This document shows positions 1 to 47,000 of a stretch of DNA of 60,213 nt, piece by piece (position 1 is the stretch's first letter; each line of letters begins with the position of its first letter). The stretch comes from Cochliopodium minus (lineage: Eukaryota > Discosea > Himatismenida > Cochliopodiidae). Location of the stretch: assembly GCA_024220525.1 (NCBI GenBank), contig JAMYWO010000024.1:78591-138803 (forward strand). The letters are read 5' to 3'. The notes beneath the pieces were generated by a model that was not told the DNA's origin, searched no databases, and worked only from the letters and a program-made list of their open reading frames with translations. The position numbers and the translations under genes were made by a program.

Positions 1-3000
1 GCCTTATTATCAACAAACAATTCAATAATCCCCTTATTTATTTTTGTTTCTGTGAAAATATTAATATCTTTTTCAAAATTTTCTTTAAAATCATCAAAGT
101 ATTTATTTTCAATTTTTTGGTTTATTGCAACGACAAAAAGAGGAGTATTTCCATTTTTGTTTTTAATATTCACATTACTTTTATTTTCAATCAAACATTC
201 GATGATATCATTCTTAATTTTTCCGTTTTTACATGCATGATGAAGAGGAGTATCTCCATTTAGATTTTTGATATTTATTTCTGCATTTTCAAAAATTAAA
301 ATTTTCAATATTTGAACATTCAAGTTTCTGTACAAACAAAGAAAATGAAGTGGAGAATTTCCTTCGAAATTAGTTGAATTCACAGAACATTTATTTTCAA
401 TCAAAAATTTAATAATATCAAGCTGTAAATTTTGATTTTTACATGCATAATGAAGTGGGGTATCTCCATTTTCATTTTTGTTTTTAACATTCACATCACT
501 TTTATTTTCAATCAAACATTTAATAATATCAAGCTGTAAATTTTGATTTTTACATGCATAATGAAGTGGAGTATCTCCATTTTATTTTTGATGTTTATTT
601 CAATAGTTTCATTTTCTAAACAATATTTCAAAATTTCAATATTCACATTTCGATTTAAACATAGATTATGTAAAGAAGTATTTCCTCGAAAATCTTTTAA
701 AACAAGATTTTTTTTTTCAAGCAATAGTTTGATTATCTTAAAGTTGAAATTTCCATTAGTACTAGCTAAATGAAGAGGCGATTTTCCTTGAAAATCAACT
801 GAATTTATATTACTCTTTTTTTTAATCAAAAGTTTAATTATTTCAAAATCTATTTGATTATTTTCACAATGTAAATGCAAAAAAGTTTTTTGTTGAATAT
901 TGGTTTTGTAATCTATTAGCTTGGTTGATGAGAGTAGATTATCAACAAATTGTAAATTCTTTGAATTTGAAAACATTTCTGCAAGATAATCTTCTTGAAT
1001 TTCATTAATTATTTTCAAAGAAGTACTTTTATTTTTTTCATCGTAAAACTCTTCAATACATAAACCAATTTCGTATTTACAATAAAAAAATTTTTCAAAA
1101 TTTCCTTTTTCAAATATTTTTGGAAAGAAAATTTTGAAAATTTCATCAAATTTCTCTGATTCTGTTCCACTAAAATGATATGATAAAAAGGGAATTATCA
1201 TTGTTGAATATTTCCATTCCTTTTTTGAACCATTAATCCAATTCATCATTTCATTTCTTTCAACTTGATTCCCAATTAATTTTTTGAAGATGTATTTTGA
1301 ACAAAAATATTCTTGAAATGAAATATGAGAAAATTCAAAGACAAAATTATTATTATCAAACGTTTTTTGAAAATTCCACACTTTTTTATAATTTCCATCA
1401 ATATTGATTTATCTTCATAATCTTCTTTGTTCATTTTATTTTCAAAAGTATTTTTAACCATCATTCCAAGATATTTTTCATCAAAACTAAATTGTTTGTT
1501 TCGAAAAGTTTCAAAAGAAATTTTTTTGATTATATATGTTGATTTTTTTCTGTAAAATTCTTTTTCAATGTTTTCAAATAAGGTGTCGATCATTTTTCCA
1601 TAAATATCACCAATTTTGTATATCTTTTTATTTACTTCTTGATCATCTTGTTTCTTTTCAAAAATCATACAAATCATTTCAAGAAATAAAGGAATAAGGC
1701 ACAAAGAATCTAATGATTTATTATTTTTCAAAATAATAAGAATGTTTTTTTCTGTTTTATCTTCATTTGGTTGTTTTTTACTTAAATATTTTTTGATAAA
1801 ACTTTCAATATCGTTTTTTTCAAATCCATCAATATTGAGTTTTAATGAAATACAATTTAATTTAATTTTTATTTCAGGTCTTGTTGTGATTATAATATTT
1901 TTGAAAATGATTATATCATTCAACAAATCTATTATTTTATTATATACTTGTGTTGAATTTACAATTTCATCCAATCCATCAAAAACAAACAAAATTTTAT
2001 TTTGATTGTTCAATGCAATCAACAAACCTCTTATTTTTTTCAATTTTTCCTCATCGAATTTATTTTTGAAATAAAATCTGATGATGAAATCAAAAATATC
2101 TTCGTTTTCAATTTTTTTCAATTCTACATGAAAAATAAATTCAAAACCTTCATTTCTCCACAATTTATTATTTACGAATTGATGACATAAAAATTTCGAA
2201 AGTGTTGATTTTCCTATGCCTGCTTTTCCTTCAATCAAAATTCTTTTTTCCTTTAATCCTTTTTTTTCAATTACATTAAAAGTTTTTTCCAAATCAAAAT
2301 TTTCTCCCATTTTCGTCTGGTTTCCAGATTTATAACTAACTATATCTTGATTTAAAAAACTTTTTATTTGAAGAGAAACAAAAGAATCCAAAATATTTCT
2401 TTGTTCTTTTTTCGGATCTATCGAAGCAATTTCAATATTTTTTTCAATGAATTCTCTTAAAAATTTTTTTATTTCTATTTTCAATTCTTTATCGTGATTT
2501 CGGGTCGGAGTTTCATTTTTCAACAATAATTGTTGAAAATGGGATTTCAAAATTTTTAGTTTGAGATTATTCAAATCACAAGAAAAAACAGGTTCTCCAT
2601 AATTGTGATCACAATTAGATTCAATGTTGCCAGAAATAGCTAAAGGACCACACTGAGGAGAATGGAATTTAATTTTACTTGGAAAAGCGATATTAGATAG
2701 TAAGTGAGAGTAAATTTCAGATAATCTAACAACTTTATTCCCATTAAAAATGTTTTTTATATTGTCGAGATCCAGTGTTTTTACAAGTGCATTTGTAAAG
2801 ATTCCCATTTGGTCAGTGGTGATCACTTCTTCATTATAATTTCCAGAAGTAATGGCCCAAATAGATTTTTTCATAGAATTTTGTATCATGATTAAATCTC
2901 TTGAATTACTAGTGTTTTTTGATTGAAAATCTTCAAAATTTTTGATTTTCATAATCCCTCCACTAAAACAACAATCCAAAATCAAAATGATGTGTTTACA

Positions 3001-3417
3001 ATTAAATTCTTTCAAATTGATGGCAACATGATGCATGTTTAATTTTGTTTTTCTATCGTTAGAATCATATTCATAGGGGCACAGAAAATAAGATTCTTCA
3101 ATTCCTTCTTTTGTTGTGTGTCCATGCCCTGAATAAAAAAAAACAAACAAACTCTCGGAAAAATGGGATTTTTCTTTTTCATTTTTTCCTTTGAATTTTT
3201 GGAAATATTTTTCAATCAAATTTTCAATATTTTCTTTTGTTGATTCTTTATTCAACAAAACATTATTATCATCTTTTTCAAATCCTAATTTCTCCAATGT
3301 TTCTTTCATCTTTTTTACATCGTTAATAGGCCCTCCTCTAAAAGAATCCAAATTTTTGTAAGTAGATATTCCAATGTAAACAGCATGGCAACTTGAATAT
3401 ATCTGATGTTCCATCAT
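1..3417 (-). CDS. NLR-like protein: caspase-like protease + NACHT NTPase + ankyrin repeats (3' end outside window)
   Basis: Probable intracellular sensor that couples a caspase/metacaspase-like protease to an NTPase switch and ankyrin repeats. Starts at 3417. The N-terminus has a caspase-type p20 fold with catalytic His in YSGHGH (about residue 98) and Cys in DCCFSGG (about residue 150). A NACHT module follows: P-loop GKAGIGKS (about 397-404) and Walker B FVFDGLDE (about 477-484). After it comes the family-typical FSHISFQEYF, then about eight ankyrin repeats (TPLHYAC type) running off the left edge. The frame changes twice by one base in A-runs (near 1381-1387 and 578-589), each as if one A were missing; both frames carry recognisable domain sequence, so sequencing error is the simplest reading. 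Two adjacent ankyrin repeats (about 422-590) are nearly identical in DNA. Domain calls are firm; an immune or cell-death role is inferred from architecture. Confidence 0.85.
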
Positions 3418-3910
3418 TTCATTCTTTTTAAATTTAAAATTTTTTTATAATTAAAAATTTATTATAAAAAAATATGAAACCACTTCATCCATATAAAGTA
3501 GATTCACATCTGATTCCTATTTTAAAATGAGACAATTTGATCAAAATTTTATTAAAATTTAATTAAATTTTATGCATAATAAATTTCTTTGAAAATTCAT
3601 AACATAATTATAATTATCAAATATTTTTGATACATTAGGCTTTGATAAGGAAAATAATTTAGATGATTATATACACTGTATGTAAATATCAATCTCCATT
3701 ATAGAGATGATTTTTTGGATCGTGTTAAAAATATGTCTCCTCCAGAAATATGAAAAAGAAATGTTTGATTTGTTGGTTATAAATATTTGGATATATTATT
3801 GCAATAATAAGAAAAAATTTCGAATACCCTATCGTTCTCCTTCATTTTTTTTTTATTCAAGATTTGATTGAAAAAAAAATTTAAATTTTTTATATTATCA
3901 CTGTTGCGAG
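3418..3910. other. AT-rich intergenic DNA
   Basis: No convincing ORF. It is the 5' flank of the caspase-NACHT gene (minus) and holds copy 1 of dispersed repeat DR1 at about 3647-3770. Confidence 0.6.
3647..3770 (+). repeat. Dispersed repeat DR1, copy 1 (shortest copy)
   Basis: Shares the block CTGTATGTAAATATCAAT, an 'ATATAGAGATGAT'-like stretch and ATCGTGTTAAAAATATGTC with copies near 6987-7165 and 9296-9470. No ORF and no clear terminal inverted repeats. It could be a short non-autonomous element or a repeated small RNA gene; the sequence does not decide. Confidence 0.7.
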
Positions 3911-15902: not shown

Positions 15903-17877
15903 TTATTTATCAAGAATGTTCCTTAATTCTTGAATGTATCGAGGAAGAGCCAAATTAAAATTCTCTTTTTGGATGTTGAGATACTTTTTGTATTTCTCAC
16001 AATCAATTTCATGAAGAGCAGTTATTCCCTTGGTGTCATGAAATGTACAACCTACCACATCTTTCCATCTGCAATAAGTTTTGCAGTCCGAATGTTTTTC
16101 AAAATCAATCCTTTTCATTGTTTTTTGGCAACTCAAACAATTCACTTGTAAATTTGAGATTCTCTTTTGATAATATTTGTTTGTTTCCATTTTCGAATTT
16201 TCACAATCTAAACAGTTAAAAATGAAATGAAGAATTTTTTTAAAAAATTTATTAACCAAATATAAGAAAATGATCAAAAGAAAATTTTAAGAAGAAAATA
16301 TTTGCTAAAATAATTTAAACAGCTTGGAGTGATTTTTAATTTATGAAAATGCAAGCTTGTTTATCTATTTTTGATATTCACAAGTTTGTAATTTAAATAA
16401 ATTAATTTACATAATAATTAAAAATATATAAAATAATTTAAAATTATTAAAAGATTTAAAAATCTTTATTAATAATTTTATTGATACATAAAATTTGACA
16501 CAAAAAAAAAAAAATTTGACACAAAAAATAAAAATTGTACCAAAAGGACACAAAGAATTGCTTTTACAACAACTTTTACAGCAAGAAAGATCGCATTCAG
16601 AACAAGTTTGGGGATGTTCATAAAGTTTTTTGCAAAGAGAACAGATTAGAAACTTTTTTATTTCGTCAACATAAACGAAACTTTGTTTTTCTTCTTCTTC
16701 TTTGGCACTTTGTTCGATCGTCGTTTCAATCTTTGAGGAAATAAAATTGATCTTTTCTAACAATTCCTCCATTTTCTTTTTGTTCTCTATTTTTCCCTTT
16801 TCAAATTCTTCTATTTTTTCTTTGTTTTGTTCATCCATTCTTTCAAGTTTTCCGATTTTTAATAATAATTCTACATTTTCTTTTTCTAGCAATTCTAAAC
16901 TTGTTTTTGATCTCTCTTGTTGTAATCTCTCTCGTTCTAATCTCTTTTCTTCTGTTTCTTTTATCGTTTGACAAGAGTGTTGGGAATAAGTGTGATTACA
17001 TTTATTACACTTTCTCGAAAAAGAATGATTAAATTATCATTTTTAAAATAATAAAAATACTTACATTCTATTCCAAATAGAAAAAGAAAGAAGAAAAATG
17101 AATGATTTGAATGTTTTTTGATTCAATAAAAATACTTACTTCCTATTCCAAAAAGAAAAATAGAAAAAAGAAAAAGAATGATTTTGATATTATTGATTAA
17201 TAAAATACTTACATCCTATTCCAAAAAGAAAAATAGAAAAAAGAAAAAAGAATGATTTGAATGTTTGTTGATTAAATAAAAATACTTACCCCCTATTCCA
17301 AAAAGAAAAATAGAAAAAAGAAAAATTAATGATTTGAATGTTTGTTTTTGATTAAATTAAAATACTTACCTTCTATTCCAAACGAAAAAGAAAAAGAATG
17401 ATTTGAATATTGTTGATTAAATAAAAATACTTACCCCCTATTCCAAATGAAAAAATTTGAATGTTTGTTGATTAAATTAAAATACTTACCTTCTATTCCA
17501 AAAAGAAAAATGAAAAAAGGATGATTTGAATGTTTGTTGATTAAATAATACTTACCCCCTATTCCAAAAAGAAAAATGAAAAATGATTTGAATGTTTGTT
17601 GATTAAATTAAAATACTTACCCCCTATTCCAAATAGAAAAATAGAAAAAGGATGATTTGAATGTTTGTTGATCAAATAAAAATACTTACAAACTATTCCA
17701 AATAGAAAAATGAAAAAAGAATGATTTGAATGTTTGTTGATTAAATAAAAATACTTACCCTCTATTCCAAATAGAAAAATGAAAAATGAAAAAAGAATGA
17801 TTTGGATATTGTTGATTGAATAAAAATACTTACCCTATCCAAAGAAAGATTTGAATAATATTGTGTTTTAAAGTCAT
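15903..17877 (-). CDS. RING/TRAF-type zinc-finger protein with coiled coil; 5' region holds a micro-exon array
   Basis: Probable E3 ubiquitin ligase or adaptor. Proposed exons: exon 1 17877-17834 (ATG...TGGATAGG, phase 2), eleven candidate 3-nt exons (17761 down to 17065), a main exon 17013-16541 and a last exon 16207-15903. About 284 aa with all micro-exons, 273 with none; the frame holds either way. The main exon starts with a Cys/His cluster KCNKCNHTYSQHSC, then a charged coiled coil (Glu/Lys-rich, about 90 residues), then a RING-like finger CSLCKKLYEHPQTCSECDLSCC...CPF. The last exon completes CPFDCENSKM and has a TRAF-type finger (CLSCQKTMKRIDFEKHSDC...GCTF). The start is the only ATG giving an exon whose GTAAGT donor keeps phase; its N-terminus (MTLKHNIIQIFLWI) is otherwise unsupported. 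Zinc-finger calls are solid; the 5' structure is inference. Confidence 0.68.
17014..17833 (-). repeat. Tandem array of intron-like units, each with a 3-nt putative micro-exon (11 units)
   Basis: On the minus strand each unit reads TTTGGAATAG|NNN|GTAAGTATTTT, with a T-rich tract before the acceptor and a shared interior around AATCAACAAACATTC. The NNN positions are 17759-17761 AGG, 17690-17692 TTT, 17621-17623 GGG, 17556-17558 GGG, 17490-17492 AAG, 17435-17437 GGG, 17370-17372 AAG, 17290-17292 GGG, 17213-17215 GAT, 17140-17142 GAA, 17065-17067 AAT. The spacing between AG and GT is always three bases, while the triplet has seven different sequences. The implied introns are 51-77 nt, the normal size here. 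The first exon's own donor (GGATAGG|GTAAGT, 17834) looks like a parental copy. Confidence 0.7.
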
Positions 17878-44032: not shown

Positions 44033-47000
44033 TTATTTTTTCAAGTATTTCATCAAACTTTCAACTTCTTCAGTGAGGGTTTTGATTTGTTGATGATCCT
44101 TTTTTTCTTTCTCTTTTTGTTCAGACAATAACTGCTTTGTGAGAGATTGAACTTGTTGCTCATCAATTTGATTTTTTTCAGACAAATGTTTTTCAAGGTT
44201 TTCATCTTTTTTCTTTTGTTCTTCCAATTCCTTCTTTTGTTCTCCCAATTCCTTCTTTTGTTCTTCCAATTCCTTCTTTTGTTCTGACAATAAATGTTTG
44301 AGGGTTTCAATTTCTTTCTCTTCATCATTTTGTGCTAATTTGAAAGCTTCTTCCAGTTTATTTTCAATCTTGACATCCTCTTTGACCGAACAAAAAGATT
44401 GAACATTTACAATCTGCAAGTAATTGAGTTTTTTCTCTTCTTTTGGTTTGTTTTCAAACAAATGAGAACCAATTTCTTGAAAAAAAGAAGGAGAGTTTTG
44501 GCACAATGCTTTGTCCTCACTTTCATACACTGTTTCGAGTTTATTCAAAAAACAAAAGTATCCACATTCAAAAAATTGATCTCTACTCAAAGGAATGACT
44601 TGAAAAAGATCACATTTTGGTTCTAAAATTGTTTTGAGATTTGAATTTTGATCATAAAAAGCGATTTCTTTCAAAACTTCAACTTTTTCTTTTCCACCAA
44701 AATCAGCATTGTTGATATCAAAAGAAGAAATGAAAGAAGATTTTGAAACAACACAGTTTGTTTTAGAAAATGAACAATCAACATCAACAACGAAATCACT
44801 TGATCTGCAATTTACTTTTGAATGAGAAAAAGAAAAAGTTTTGACAAAACATTCTCCTTTCACAAAATTTTGATTTGAATCACATTCAATCTGAAAATCA
44901 TTCTTTTCTTTGATTGATTTGATTTGATTTTGAGGAACAAATTGAATTTCGCCATCTTTGAGAAAGTAAGTTGAATTCAATTCTGAAAAAACATCAAAAT
45001 TGAGGAGATAAAAATTTGTTTGTTTTGTTTTTGAAATGCTTGAAGATTGTCTCATTTCAAAAGTAAAATCATTTCTTGTTATTCCCGTTCCAGGTTCTCC
45101 CTTTTCTCCTTTTTGTCCTCCAGCATCTCCTTTCTCTCCTTTGTTGCCTTTAAATCCTCTTTCACCAGGTAAACCAATAGGACCATTGTTTCCTCTTGGA
45201 CCAGTATCTCCTTTTGGTCCACCAGGTGGTCCTTGAACACCAGTTGGTCCTTGTACTCCCAAAACACCAGTAGCTCCAGTAACACCTGTATTACCTTGAA
45301 CACCTGTGACACCAGTATAACCAACAACTCCAGTTGGCCCTGTATTTCCTTGTACTCCTGAAACTCCCGTAAATCCTTGAATACCTGTTGGTCCAGAAAA
45401 TCCTTGTACTCCTGTAACTCCCGTAAATCCTTGTACTCCTGAATATCCATTGGAACCAATAAGACCTGTTGCACCTGTTTGTCCTTGAGATCCTGCTACT
45501 CCTGTAGATCCTTGAATTCCTTGAACTCCTGTAGGTCCTTGCACTCCTTGAACTCCTGTAGGTCCTTGTATTCCTGCTACTCCTGTTGATCCTTGTACTC
45601 CTTGAACTCCCGTAGATCCTTGAACTCCTGTAACTCCTGTTATTCCTTGTGATCCTGTTACTCCAGTAGATCCTTGTATTCCTGTATATCCAATTGGAAA
45701 ATTATTTGGCAACAAAGATTCAATGGATAAACAAGTAAGTGTCACAGATGGAGTATTTGAACAAGAAGAACTCGTAATTGAACCCCCTCCAATTTTAACG
45801 TTATTATCAAACTTACAATTAGTTGGGGTGCTTGAACCTTTCGTACCAACATTATTTTCAAAAGCAATAACTCCATTCATACTGTTTCTACTAGAGTAAA
45901 GATCCTGTACGTTTGCTTTAAAAGAAAATTACTTTATTTTTAAAAATGATTAAAAATGATTTTACCACCAGTATTTGCAATATTTCCTCCAACAAAAAAA
46001 CTGGCAGTTAGTGTATTGGAACAAGAAACAAGATTCTTAGCTTGTGAAGAATATCCAATATTGCCCCCAACATAAAAACCACTTAACTAATTTTAAAATA
46101 TAAAGAATAATTTAAAAAAAGTTTTTTTCTTTTTACTGTGTTGAAAAGAGAGTTCAAATTATTGGCTGATGAACCAGAACTGTAAAAAAAAATCAAAATA
46201 AAAAAAAAAATTTATATCAATATCATTATTGAAAACCCATGAAGTCCAATGTTTCCTCCAGTCTGTTCACTATCCAAAAAAAAATAATTTAAAATAATTT
46301 CATTAAATTTAAATTTTGAAAAAATTCAAAAATTACTCTTGATTAATAATGTTGGAAAAGGAATCAAGATTGGAGACAGTGATGCTTTTTTTTTTTTTGA
46401 AAAAATAAATTAAATATATTTTTTTTTTTTAGAAAAATTATATATAATTTAAATTATCAGAAATTAAAAAAAATGTAAACCTCGAATGACCAATATTTCC
46501 TCCAGCATCTATATAAATAAAAATAATAAATTGTAAATTATAATAAATTAAAAACTGATTTAATTATTTAAGAATTTTTTTATGATTAGTATTTACATCC
46601 AAGAGTTAATAGTGAAGTTTTGGACATGATATTATTGTAAGACTTGAAATTTGAAGCAGATCCAGCTATTACATAAAGAAATAAAAGAAAAAATATGTCA
46701 AATGAAAAATTAATTATTACCAAATGTTGATCCAATATTATAACCAAAACTCAAGGTACTTAATTTAACAATCGTAATATCGTGAGATATCAAATTCAGT
46801 ACATTTCCAGCAGAAGTTCCCACAATCCCACCAAATGAATTTAATTTTTTTCCACTAACATCAATAGTATTGAATGAAGAAATACAATTCGTTATTGAAG
46901 CACTTAAAAGTGAACCAACTAAAAATCCAATATCAATACCTTCTTGTGAATTGGAAAATGTAATTGAAGATCTTGTTATCTCCAAATTCTTGATAGCGGA

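Follow-up and report, generated by a model that had tools for sequence, protein, structure and literature searches.

The short tandem units between the first two exons of a zinc-finger-like gene in the amoeba Cochliopodium minus raise the question of whether a cell could build the end of a protein from exons of a single codon each, or whether the units are a repeat or a set of decoy splice sites that resembles such exons. The window, i.e. the whole stretch of 60,213 nt that was analysed, has an A+T content of 66-83% across 2-kb stretches, and the units lie on its minus strand. For comparison, the genome of Anaeramoeba ignava has been given as 80.65% A+T (PMC11550330).

Anatomy of the array

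Each unit consists of a T-rich tract, TTTGGAATAG, a triplet NNN and GTAAGTATT, so that the donor starting with GTAAGT follows the triplet directly. The initial annotation had counted eleven consecutive units with an AG-to-GT spacing of always three bases. This count was confirmed when the whole window was searched with the pattern TTTGGAATAGNNNGTAAGTATT, which gave 11 matches on the minus strand (17056-17771) where 100 dinucleotide-preserving shuffles of the window led us to expect 0. The array is located between a short ATG exon (17877-17834) and the long coding exon 2 (17009-16541). The features are listed below in 5' to 3' order of the minus strand; the candidate micro-exons were placed by the pattern and the triplet list.

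17834..17877, minus strand: candidate exon 1, MTLKHNIIQIFLWI plus 2 nt, its end resembling an array unit
17759..17761, minus strand: candidate micro-exon 1, AGG
17690..17692, minus strand: candidate micro-exon 2, TTT
17621..17623, minus strand: candidate micro-exon 3, GGG
17556..17558, minus strand: candidate micro-exon 4, GGG
17490..17492, minus strand: candidate micro-exon 5, AAG
17435..17437, minus strand: candidate micro-exon 6, GGG
17370..17372, minus strand: candidate micro-exon 7, AAG
17290..17292, minus strand: candidate micro-exon 8, GGG
17213..17215, minus strand: candidate micro-exon 9, GAT
17140..17142, minus strand: candidate micro-exon 10, GAA
17065..17067, minus strand: candidate micro-exon 11, AAT
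17010..17013, minus strand: 4 nt separating the two possible exon 2 acceptors, after CGAG and after AAAG
16541..17009, minus strand: exon 2 (469 nt) with a CxxCxH motif, a coiled coil and a RING-like Cys-rich region, named by resemblance
15903..16207, minus strand: exon 3 with a TRAF-type-like Cys/His region, named by resemblance, ending in NILDK and a stop

Exon 1 itself ends like a unit, in TTTGGATAG, G and GTAAGT, and the array thus has 12 members if this end is counted. Passing from exon 1 to exon 2 would take 12 introns of 51-77 nt, the last one measured to CGAG. This length range had been given before and stands. It had also been described as normal for the genome; compared with a small sample, four introns of a neighbouring kinesin gene (63, 80, 118 and 146 nt, verified by reading the joined frame), it lies at or below the short end. 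The relatives of this kinesin include KIF18/19 and Klp5, with an identity of at most 46% among the best 120 of 3092. Its donors are GTAAAT (three) and GTATAA (one), never GTAAGT, and the array donors look closer to the textbook optimum.

The last intron of the window array could end at CGAG/A (17013) or at AAAG/TGT (17009), and the two acceptors imply different phases, the former fitting phase 2 and the latter phase 0. The earlier statement that exon 2 begins with the base completing phase 2 accordingly holds for CGAG/A, while the second acceptor gives the other phase.

Downstream of the array lies a member of a zinc-finger-like family with a coiled-coil/RING-like exon 2 and a TRAF-type-like exon 3, names that were given by resemblance; no Pfam family was matched at E values up to 0.1 by the 257 residues that exons 2 and 3 encode. 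The join of exon 2 and exon 3 matches P0001, a EukProt protein whose sequence was predicted from assembled transcripts. P0001 was the only match in two protein searches, in the second of which the 8000 best candidates were scored, and it starts inside exon 2, so that it covers no part of the array.

Elsewhere on the minus strand of the window, an open frame at 1276-3444 gave caspase (Peptidase_C14) and NACHT matches and an overlapping frame at 512-1408 appeared ankyrin-like by eye; by these matches and by eye, 512-3444 may have an NLR-like architecture in a protist. At 44033-45928 of the same strand, collagen-like glycine-rich repeats are followed by a coiled-coil-like part, again judged by eye.

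Sister arrays and their variation

The genome assembly (44.65 Mb, 598 contigs) contained four such arrays, here called C24a (the window array, 11 triplets), C24b (6), C119 (5) and C532 (11), with 33 triplets altogether, 15 of them distinct. All four adjoin, on the upstream side, copies of the same gene. C24b is on the same contig as the window array, about 58 kb away, and its upstream part, including exon 1, is hidden by a run of about 15 kb of N (C24:138804-153909), either a gap or withheld sequence, which extends from the end of the window as far as the C24b array. Across the four genes, exon 2 measures 469-688 nt and exon 3 about 300 nt, and both exons read through without a stop in every copy.

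When the whole genome was scanned with the unit pattern, allowing up to 3 mismatches, 45 places were found, of which 33 were the array units and 12 lay scattered elsewhere with 3 mismatches each; the reversed control gave 9. A general tandem-unit pattern gave 28 matches, all of them in the four arrays (control 1). A looser pattern, in which GTAAGT donors enclose an exon of 1-18 nt, found 36 matches, 29 in the arrays and 7 single scattered ones; with 308 matches in its reversed control, it is powerless to separate single micro-exons from chance. Possible single micro-exons with an acceptor-like sequence and GTAAGT occur at C59:5597-5679 and C150:51370-51433 and may be chance, control matches being more numerous. 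None of these three genome scans, all keyed to GTAAGT-type donors, revealed a further array, and searching bacterial/archaeal and viral collections with the unit gave 3 and 1 stretches with one match each and no arrays.

A search of the genome with the gene gave 25 matching stretches at E values up to 0.01, the best five being the four array genes and a fifth close copy, C220:44035-47352. This copy is rearranged, its last exon being inverted directly before a truncated exon 2, which is either real or an assembly fault; no array was seen by eye in its readable part. On C7, an intron-like stretch upstream of a 45% identical relative ends in TTTTTGGACAG, a sequence similar to the array acceptors, and has no unit. 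Dispersal of the units in the manner of introners was considered and rejected: a DNA search gave 11 matches, 10 of them within the four arrays; the eleventh, 45 bp long, is on C11 and lies by eye downstream of a coding end. The counts of this search are lower bounds as simple repeats were skipped.

The triplet is 3 nt long in 33/33 units and the introns of the four arrays measure 49-85 nt. Of the 36 intron donors, 35 read GTAAGT and one GTGAGT; the unit acceptor is TAG in 33/33, and the last intron ends in all four arrays with CGAG(A or T)AAG followed by TGT, offering two possible acceptors 4 nt apart. As an array of splice sites the locus is firm; its use we infer. The reading we favour, at about even chances of being right, is that the sequence represents single-codon micro-exons in the N-terminal part of the coding region, each followed by a short, nearly identical intron.

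The initial annotation had described differing triplets in fixed splice surroundings and had proposed to compare substitutions in triplets, splice sites and intron interiors. Within C24a, C24b, C119 and C532, respectively, the pairwise difference per site was 0.606, 0.422, 0.733 and 0.661 for the triplets, 0.054, 0.040, 0.000 and 0.021 for the donor region, 0.100, 0.017, 0.043 and 0.098 for the intron core and 0, 0, 0 and 0.093 for the acceptor. The core comprised well-aligned, hand-chosen columns; the intron comparison covered neither the pyrimidine tract nor the last intron of each array. The description was borne out: triplets are near random between units (0.42-0.73), donors (0-0.054) and acceptors (0-0.093) hardly vary, and the intron core differs at 0.017-0.100. 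When the 65 alignment columns with no more than four gaps were ranked by entropy, the three columns of the triplet took places 1, 3 and 4, and place 2 went to a pyrimidine-tract column that aligns poorly.

Unit pairs without a difference in the 33 core and donor columns differed on average at 0.86 of the 3 triplet bases (14 pairs), those with one difference at 1.12 (24 pairs) and those with more at 2.15-2.38 (68 pairs). Over all 106 pairs, triplet difference did not correlate significantly with intron distance, neither for the upstream intron (rho 0.15, p 0.12) nor for the downstream one (-0.16, p 0.11).

In composition, the triplets (38% GC, 69% purine) differed from the intron bodies (15% GC, 31% purine; binomial p 3e-8 and 2e-14) and were close to exons 2 and 3 of the four copies (28% GC, 63% purine), from which they departed slightly towards higher GC (p 0.034) and not in purines (p 0.25). 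These p values overstate the case since the units share ancestry; still, the triplet composition is exon-like and the direction is plain despite the relatedness of the units. Exons usually end in AG before the donor; the triplets depart from this, their last base being T in 15/33.

An alternative account of these repeats is a minisatellite without a splicing role, which would have arisen from a duplicated exon-1/intron-1 boundary (TTTGGATAG-N-GTAAGT plus intron) and spread by unequal exchange inside one long intron. The tandem repeats are clear, exon 1 ends in a unit-like motif in all three sisters whose exon 1 is readable, and the units cluster by array: the nearest neighbour of a unit was in its own array for 86% of 29 units, as compared to a mean of 26% and a maximum of 60% in 2000 permutations. 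A neutral minisatellite would also spread its substitutions regardless of splice sites, which the differences given above contradict, and drift would not keep GTAAGT in 35/36 and TAG in 33/33 around a near-random, exon-like triplet. Duplication of this kind accounts more readily for how the units arose than for how they are maintained, and we consider a minisatellite without a splicing role unlikely. Another reading of the variable triplet, as a recombination site, was dropped as its two arms are by eye not inverted repeats.

Because units resemble other units of their own array, the arrays appear to turn over by duplication within each gene. C24a and C119 have their first two triplets in common (AGG, TTT) and C24a and C24b their last two (GAA, AAT), while C532 has neither pair. 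Such sharing would be expected from old array ends around a middle that turns over, and it means that the triplets are not fast everywhere. The array introns are slow, since their cores differ by 0.03-0.12 between arrays as compared to 0.17-0.37 between copies for intron 2, which served as an approximate neutral reference. Fast triplets may reflect diversifying selection or relaxed constraint between two constrained sites; the latter could suffice given that the intron cores themselves are slow. The fixed length of 3 nt may in part be inherited from an ancestral unit.

The coding sequence next to the array is also fast-changing. Between copies, silent divergence amounted to 0.08-0.30 and amino-acid-changing divergence was lower in 6/6 pairs. 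At the start of exon 2, before the ERM motif, C24a and C24b showed 24 amino-acid-changing and 3 silent differences, as compared to 13 and 11 after it; the nominal Fisher p values for this contrast were 0.011 (C24a-C24b), 0.047 (C24a-C532) and 0.080 (C24b-C532) in the three pairs. Per site, amino-acid-changing differences equalled or exceeded silent ones at the exon 2 start in 5/6 pairs (C24a-C24b 0.179 vs 0.107), the sixth pair, C24b-C119, having no difference there, and they were below silent ones after ERM in 6/6 pairs (C24a-C24b 0.026 vs 0.108). In C24b and C119 the 54 codons compared before ERM are identical, the rest differs and the arrays just upstream differ as well; recent gene conversion is a possible cause of this identity. 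The coiled coil of C532 exon 2 carries about 60 extra in-frame codons of ERIxQER-like repeats.

Reading frame and competing readings

In the window gene, the candidate exon 1 begins with the ATG at 17877, reaches the first GTAAGT after 44 nt and so ends in phase 2. In this phase none of the 55 ordered unit pairs of C24a gives a stop, and the initial annotation was right on both points for the window gene. Its frame argument did not extend to the sisters. In phase 2, stops occurred in 0/10 ordered pairs of C119, 3/15 of C24b and 2/55 of C532, and full inclusion would run into a stop in C24b and C532, i.e. in two of the other three arrays. Phase 1 gave stops in 7/55 pairs of C24a, 2/10 of C119, 21/55 of C532 and 0/15 of C24b. 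In phase 0, where each triplet is a codon, 0/33 triplets are stops, so that any subset of units remains open. Phase 0 is the sole phase open in all four arrays. Shuffling gave 33 stop-free triplets with a probability of 0.03-0.06, before allowing for three phases, and the absence of stops is therefore weak evidence.

Exon 1 is 45 nt long in C119 and C532, and that of C532 has an in-frame TAA as codon 9; with 44 nt in C24a, no single shared frame is kept through exon 1. The difference between C24a and C119 could be absorbed by the two exon 2 acceptors (CGAG for phase 2, AAAG for phase 0). The stop in C532 is beyond this explanation, unless an earlier donor is used or the gene is decaying. Around the ATG, 28 of 31 alignment columns of exon 1 are identical among the three sisters with a readable exon 1; farther upstream no clear similarity was seen by eye in the same three. 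Homology of the ATG part to the intron units was rejected because it did not reach significance: out of 200 shuffles, 30, 88 and 139 were as good. A start codon assembled from joined micro-exons was likewise dropped: GAT and GAA of C24a would give ATG AAA ATA AAG TGT, and nothing comparable was found by eye in the other three triplet lists.

The open phase 0 would also suit fixed inclusion, in which all units are always spliced in and each gene encodes one constant peptide without combinatorial use: RFGGKGKGDEN (C24a), EELEEN (C24b, array cut off), RFVGD (C119) and SEFSNSPLSSY (C532). That sisters have some array-end triplets in common agrees with such a constant product. The two phases of exon 1 and the stop in one exon 1 do not, and eleven consecutive 3-nt exons would presumably be hard to include without error; we therefore think it very doubtful that inclusion is fixed.

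Could the donors alone be what matters? Units might be alternative or decoy 5' splice sites, or paired decoys, that delay or regulate removal of the first intron, the triplets never entering the mRNA. Donors are indeed among the best-kept elements of the arrays, and in sequence they differ from the four kinesin donors (GTAAAT, GTATAA). Decoys have no need of a TAG exactly 3 nt upstream in 33/33 units nor of exon-like triplets, and retained units would hit stops at once (ATA GGG TAA after exon 1), which makes such a role quite improbable. The annotation had named both a minisatellite and decoy sites as rivals of micro-exons; with both splice sites kept in four sisters around variable, exon-like triplets of 3 nt, the units look more like micro-exons than like either.

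In insect Dscam, docking-site RNA pairing guides a mutually exclusive choice of exons, and by analogy a single codon might be chosen here through pairing between a docking site and the introns. We tested the last intron of each array against the conserved core of its units. In C119 the pairing was better than in 200/200 shuffles. As many as 92/200 (C24a), 43/200 (C24b) and 64/200 (C532) shuffles did as well in the other arrays, and docking-selector pairing was rejected as a general feature, the last intron beating shuffles in only 1/4 arrays; a choice of this type seems extremely unlikely. Altogether, one-codon micro-exons fit the data better than docking-site pairing, introner-like spread or a neutral minisatellite.

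A putative codon-by-codon splicing scheme and related systems

If the units are micro-exons, the array would be transcribed and spliced, its units might be included in part, and the resulting peptide might have a function; these four steps we infer from the sequence. With only 3 nt, an exon leaves no room for simultaneous binding at its two splice sites. As the two can hardly be occupied together, stepwise (recursive) joining is likely. Exon 1 would be spliced to the TAG of a unit, by which NNN is added, and the GTAAGT following the added NNN would be the donor for the next step, whose target could be the following unit, a later unit or exon 2. Since every exon has three bases, the frame would be kept with any number and any choice of units, and the protein would gain an N-terminal peptide of between 0 and 11 residues ahead of the CxxCxH motif. 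Over time, arrays would grow and shrink by unit duplication, and selection would keep the splice sites while the codons change. That the array acts in this way as a codon-by-codon peptide generator, with variable number and choice of micro-exons and with codons driven apart by selection while splice sites are held, is a tentative proposal which we regard as possible and rather less than probable.

Micro-exon genes (MEGs) of schistosomes offer the nearest comparison. They are described as runs of very short exons, mostly multiples of three in length, with splice variants that alter proteins by a few residues and, in some cases, fast-changing proteins; exon sizes are given as 6 to 81 bp, with 15 bp commonest, or as 3-81 bp in the abstract, introns can approach 5 kb, micro-exons make up most of the coding region and the products are secreted (PMC10526429, PMC4350168). 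Like MEGs, the arrays have exon lengths divisible by three, in 33/33 putative exons. Unlike MEGs, all their units are 3 nt long, their introns (49-85 nt) are near-identical and they are confined to the N terminus; as most coding sequence is in the long exons 2 (469-688 nt) and 3 (about 300 nt), the array genes fail a defining feature of MEGs. If spliced, the array would work like MEGs and represent the single-codon limit of the MEG idea with near-identical introns.

Recursive splicing is described for Drosophila ratchet points and RS-exons, where a donor beside an acceptor serves a second splicing step; at ratchet points, which occur in long introns, the two sites adjoin each other and the mRNA usually retains no bases from them (PMC8605326). 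The array also has acceptor and donor side by side, and each step could supply the next donor, but three bases separate the sites in 33/33 units, unlike the abutting AG and GT of ratchet points, and the introns are short. In Arabidopsis APC11 an exon of 1 nt is spliced, and 3 nt is cited there as the smallest exon characterised earlier (PMC4674806); this exon is isolated and constitutive, whereas the array has many units of variable content. The dual-specific splice sites of polyubiquitin genes are usable as donor and as acceptor (PMC10809524). As that account presents them, the same site takes both roles, whereas the array has two separate sites 3 nt apart.

Among the open-licence papers listed, none described a tandem array of single-codon exons in its title or the start of its abstract, and exons of 1-3 bases appeared in the literature examined as isolated cases only. 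If the favoured reading is true, the array genes of C. minus would be an extreme of the micro-exon gene principle, a protein end varying one residue at a time. With nearly the same introns in all units and differences mainly in three exon bases, the array would also lend itself naturally to testing how small an exon can be.
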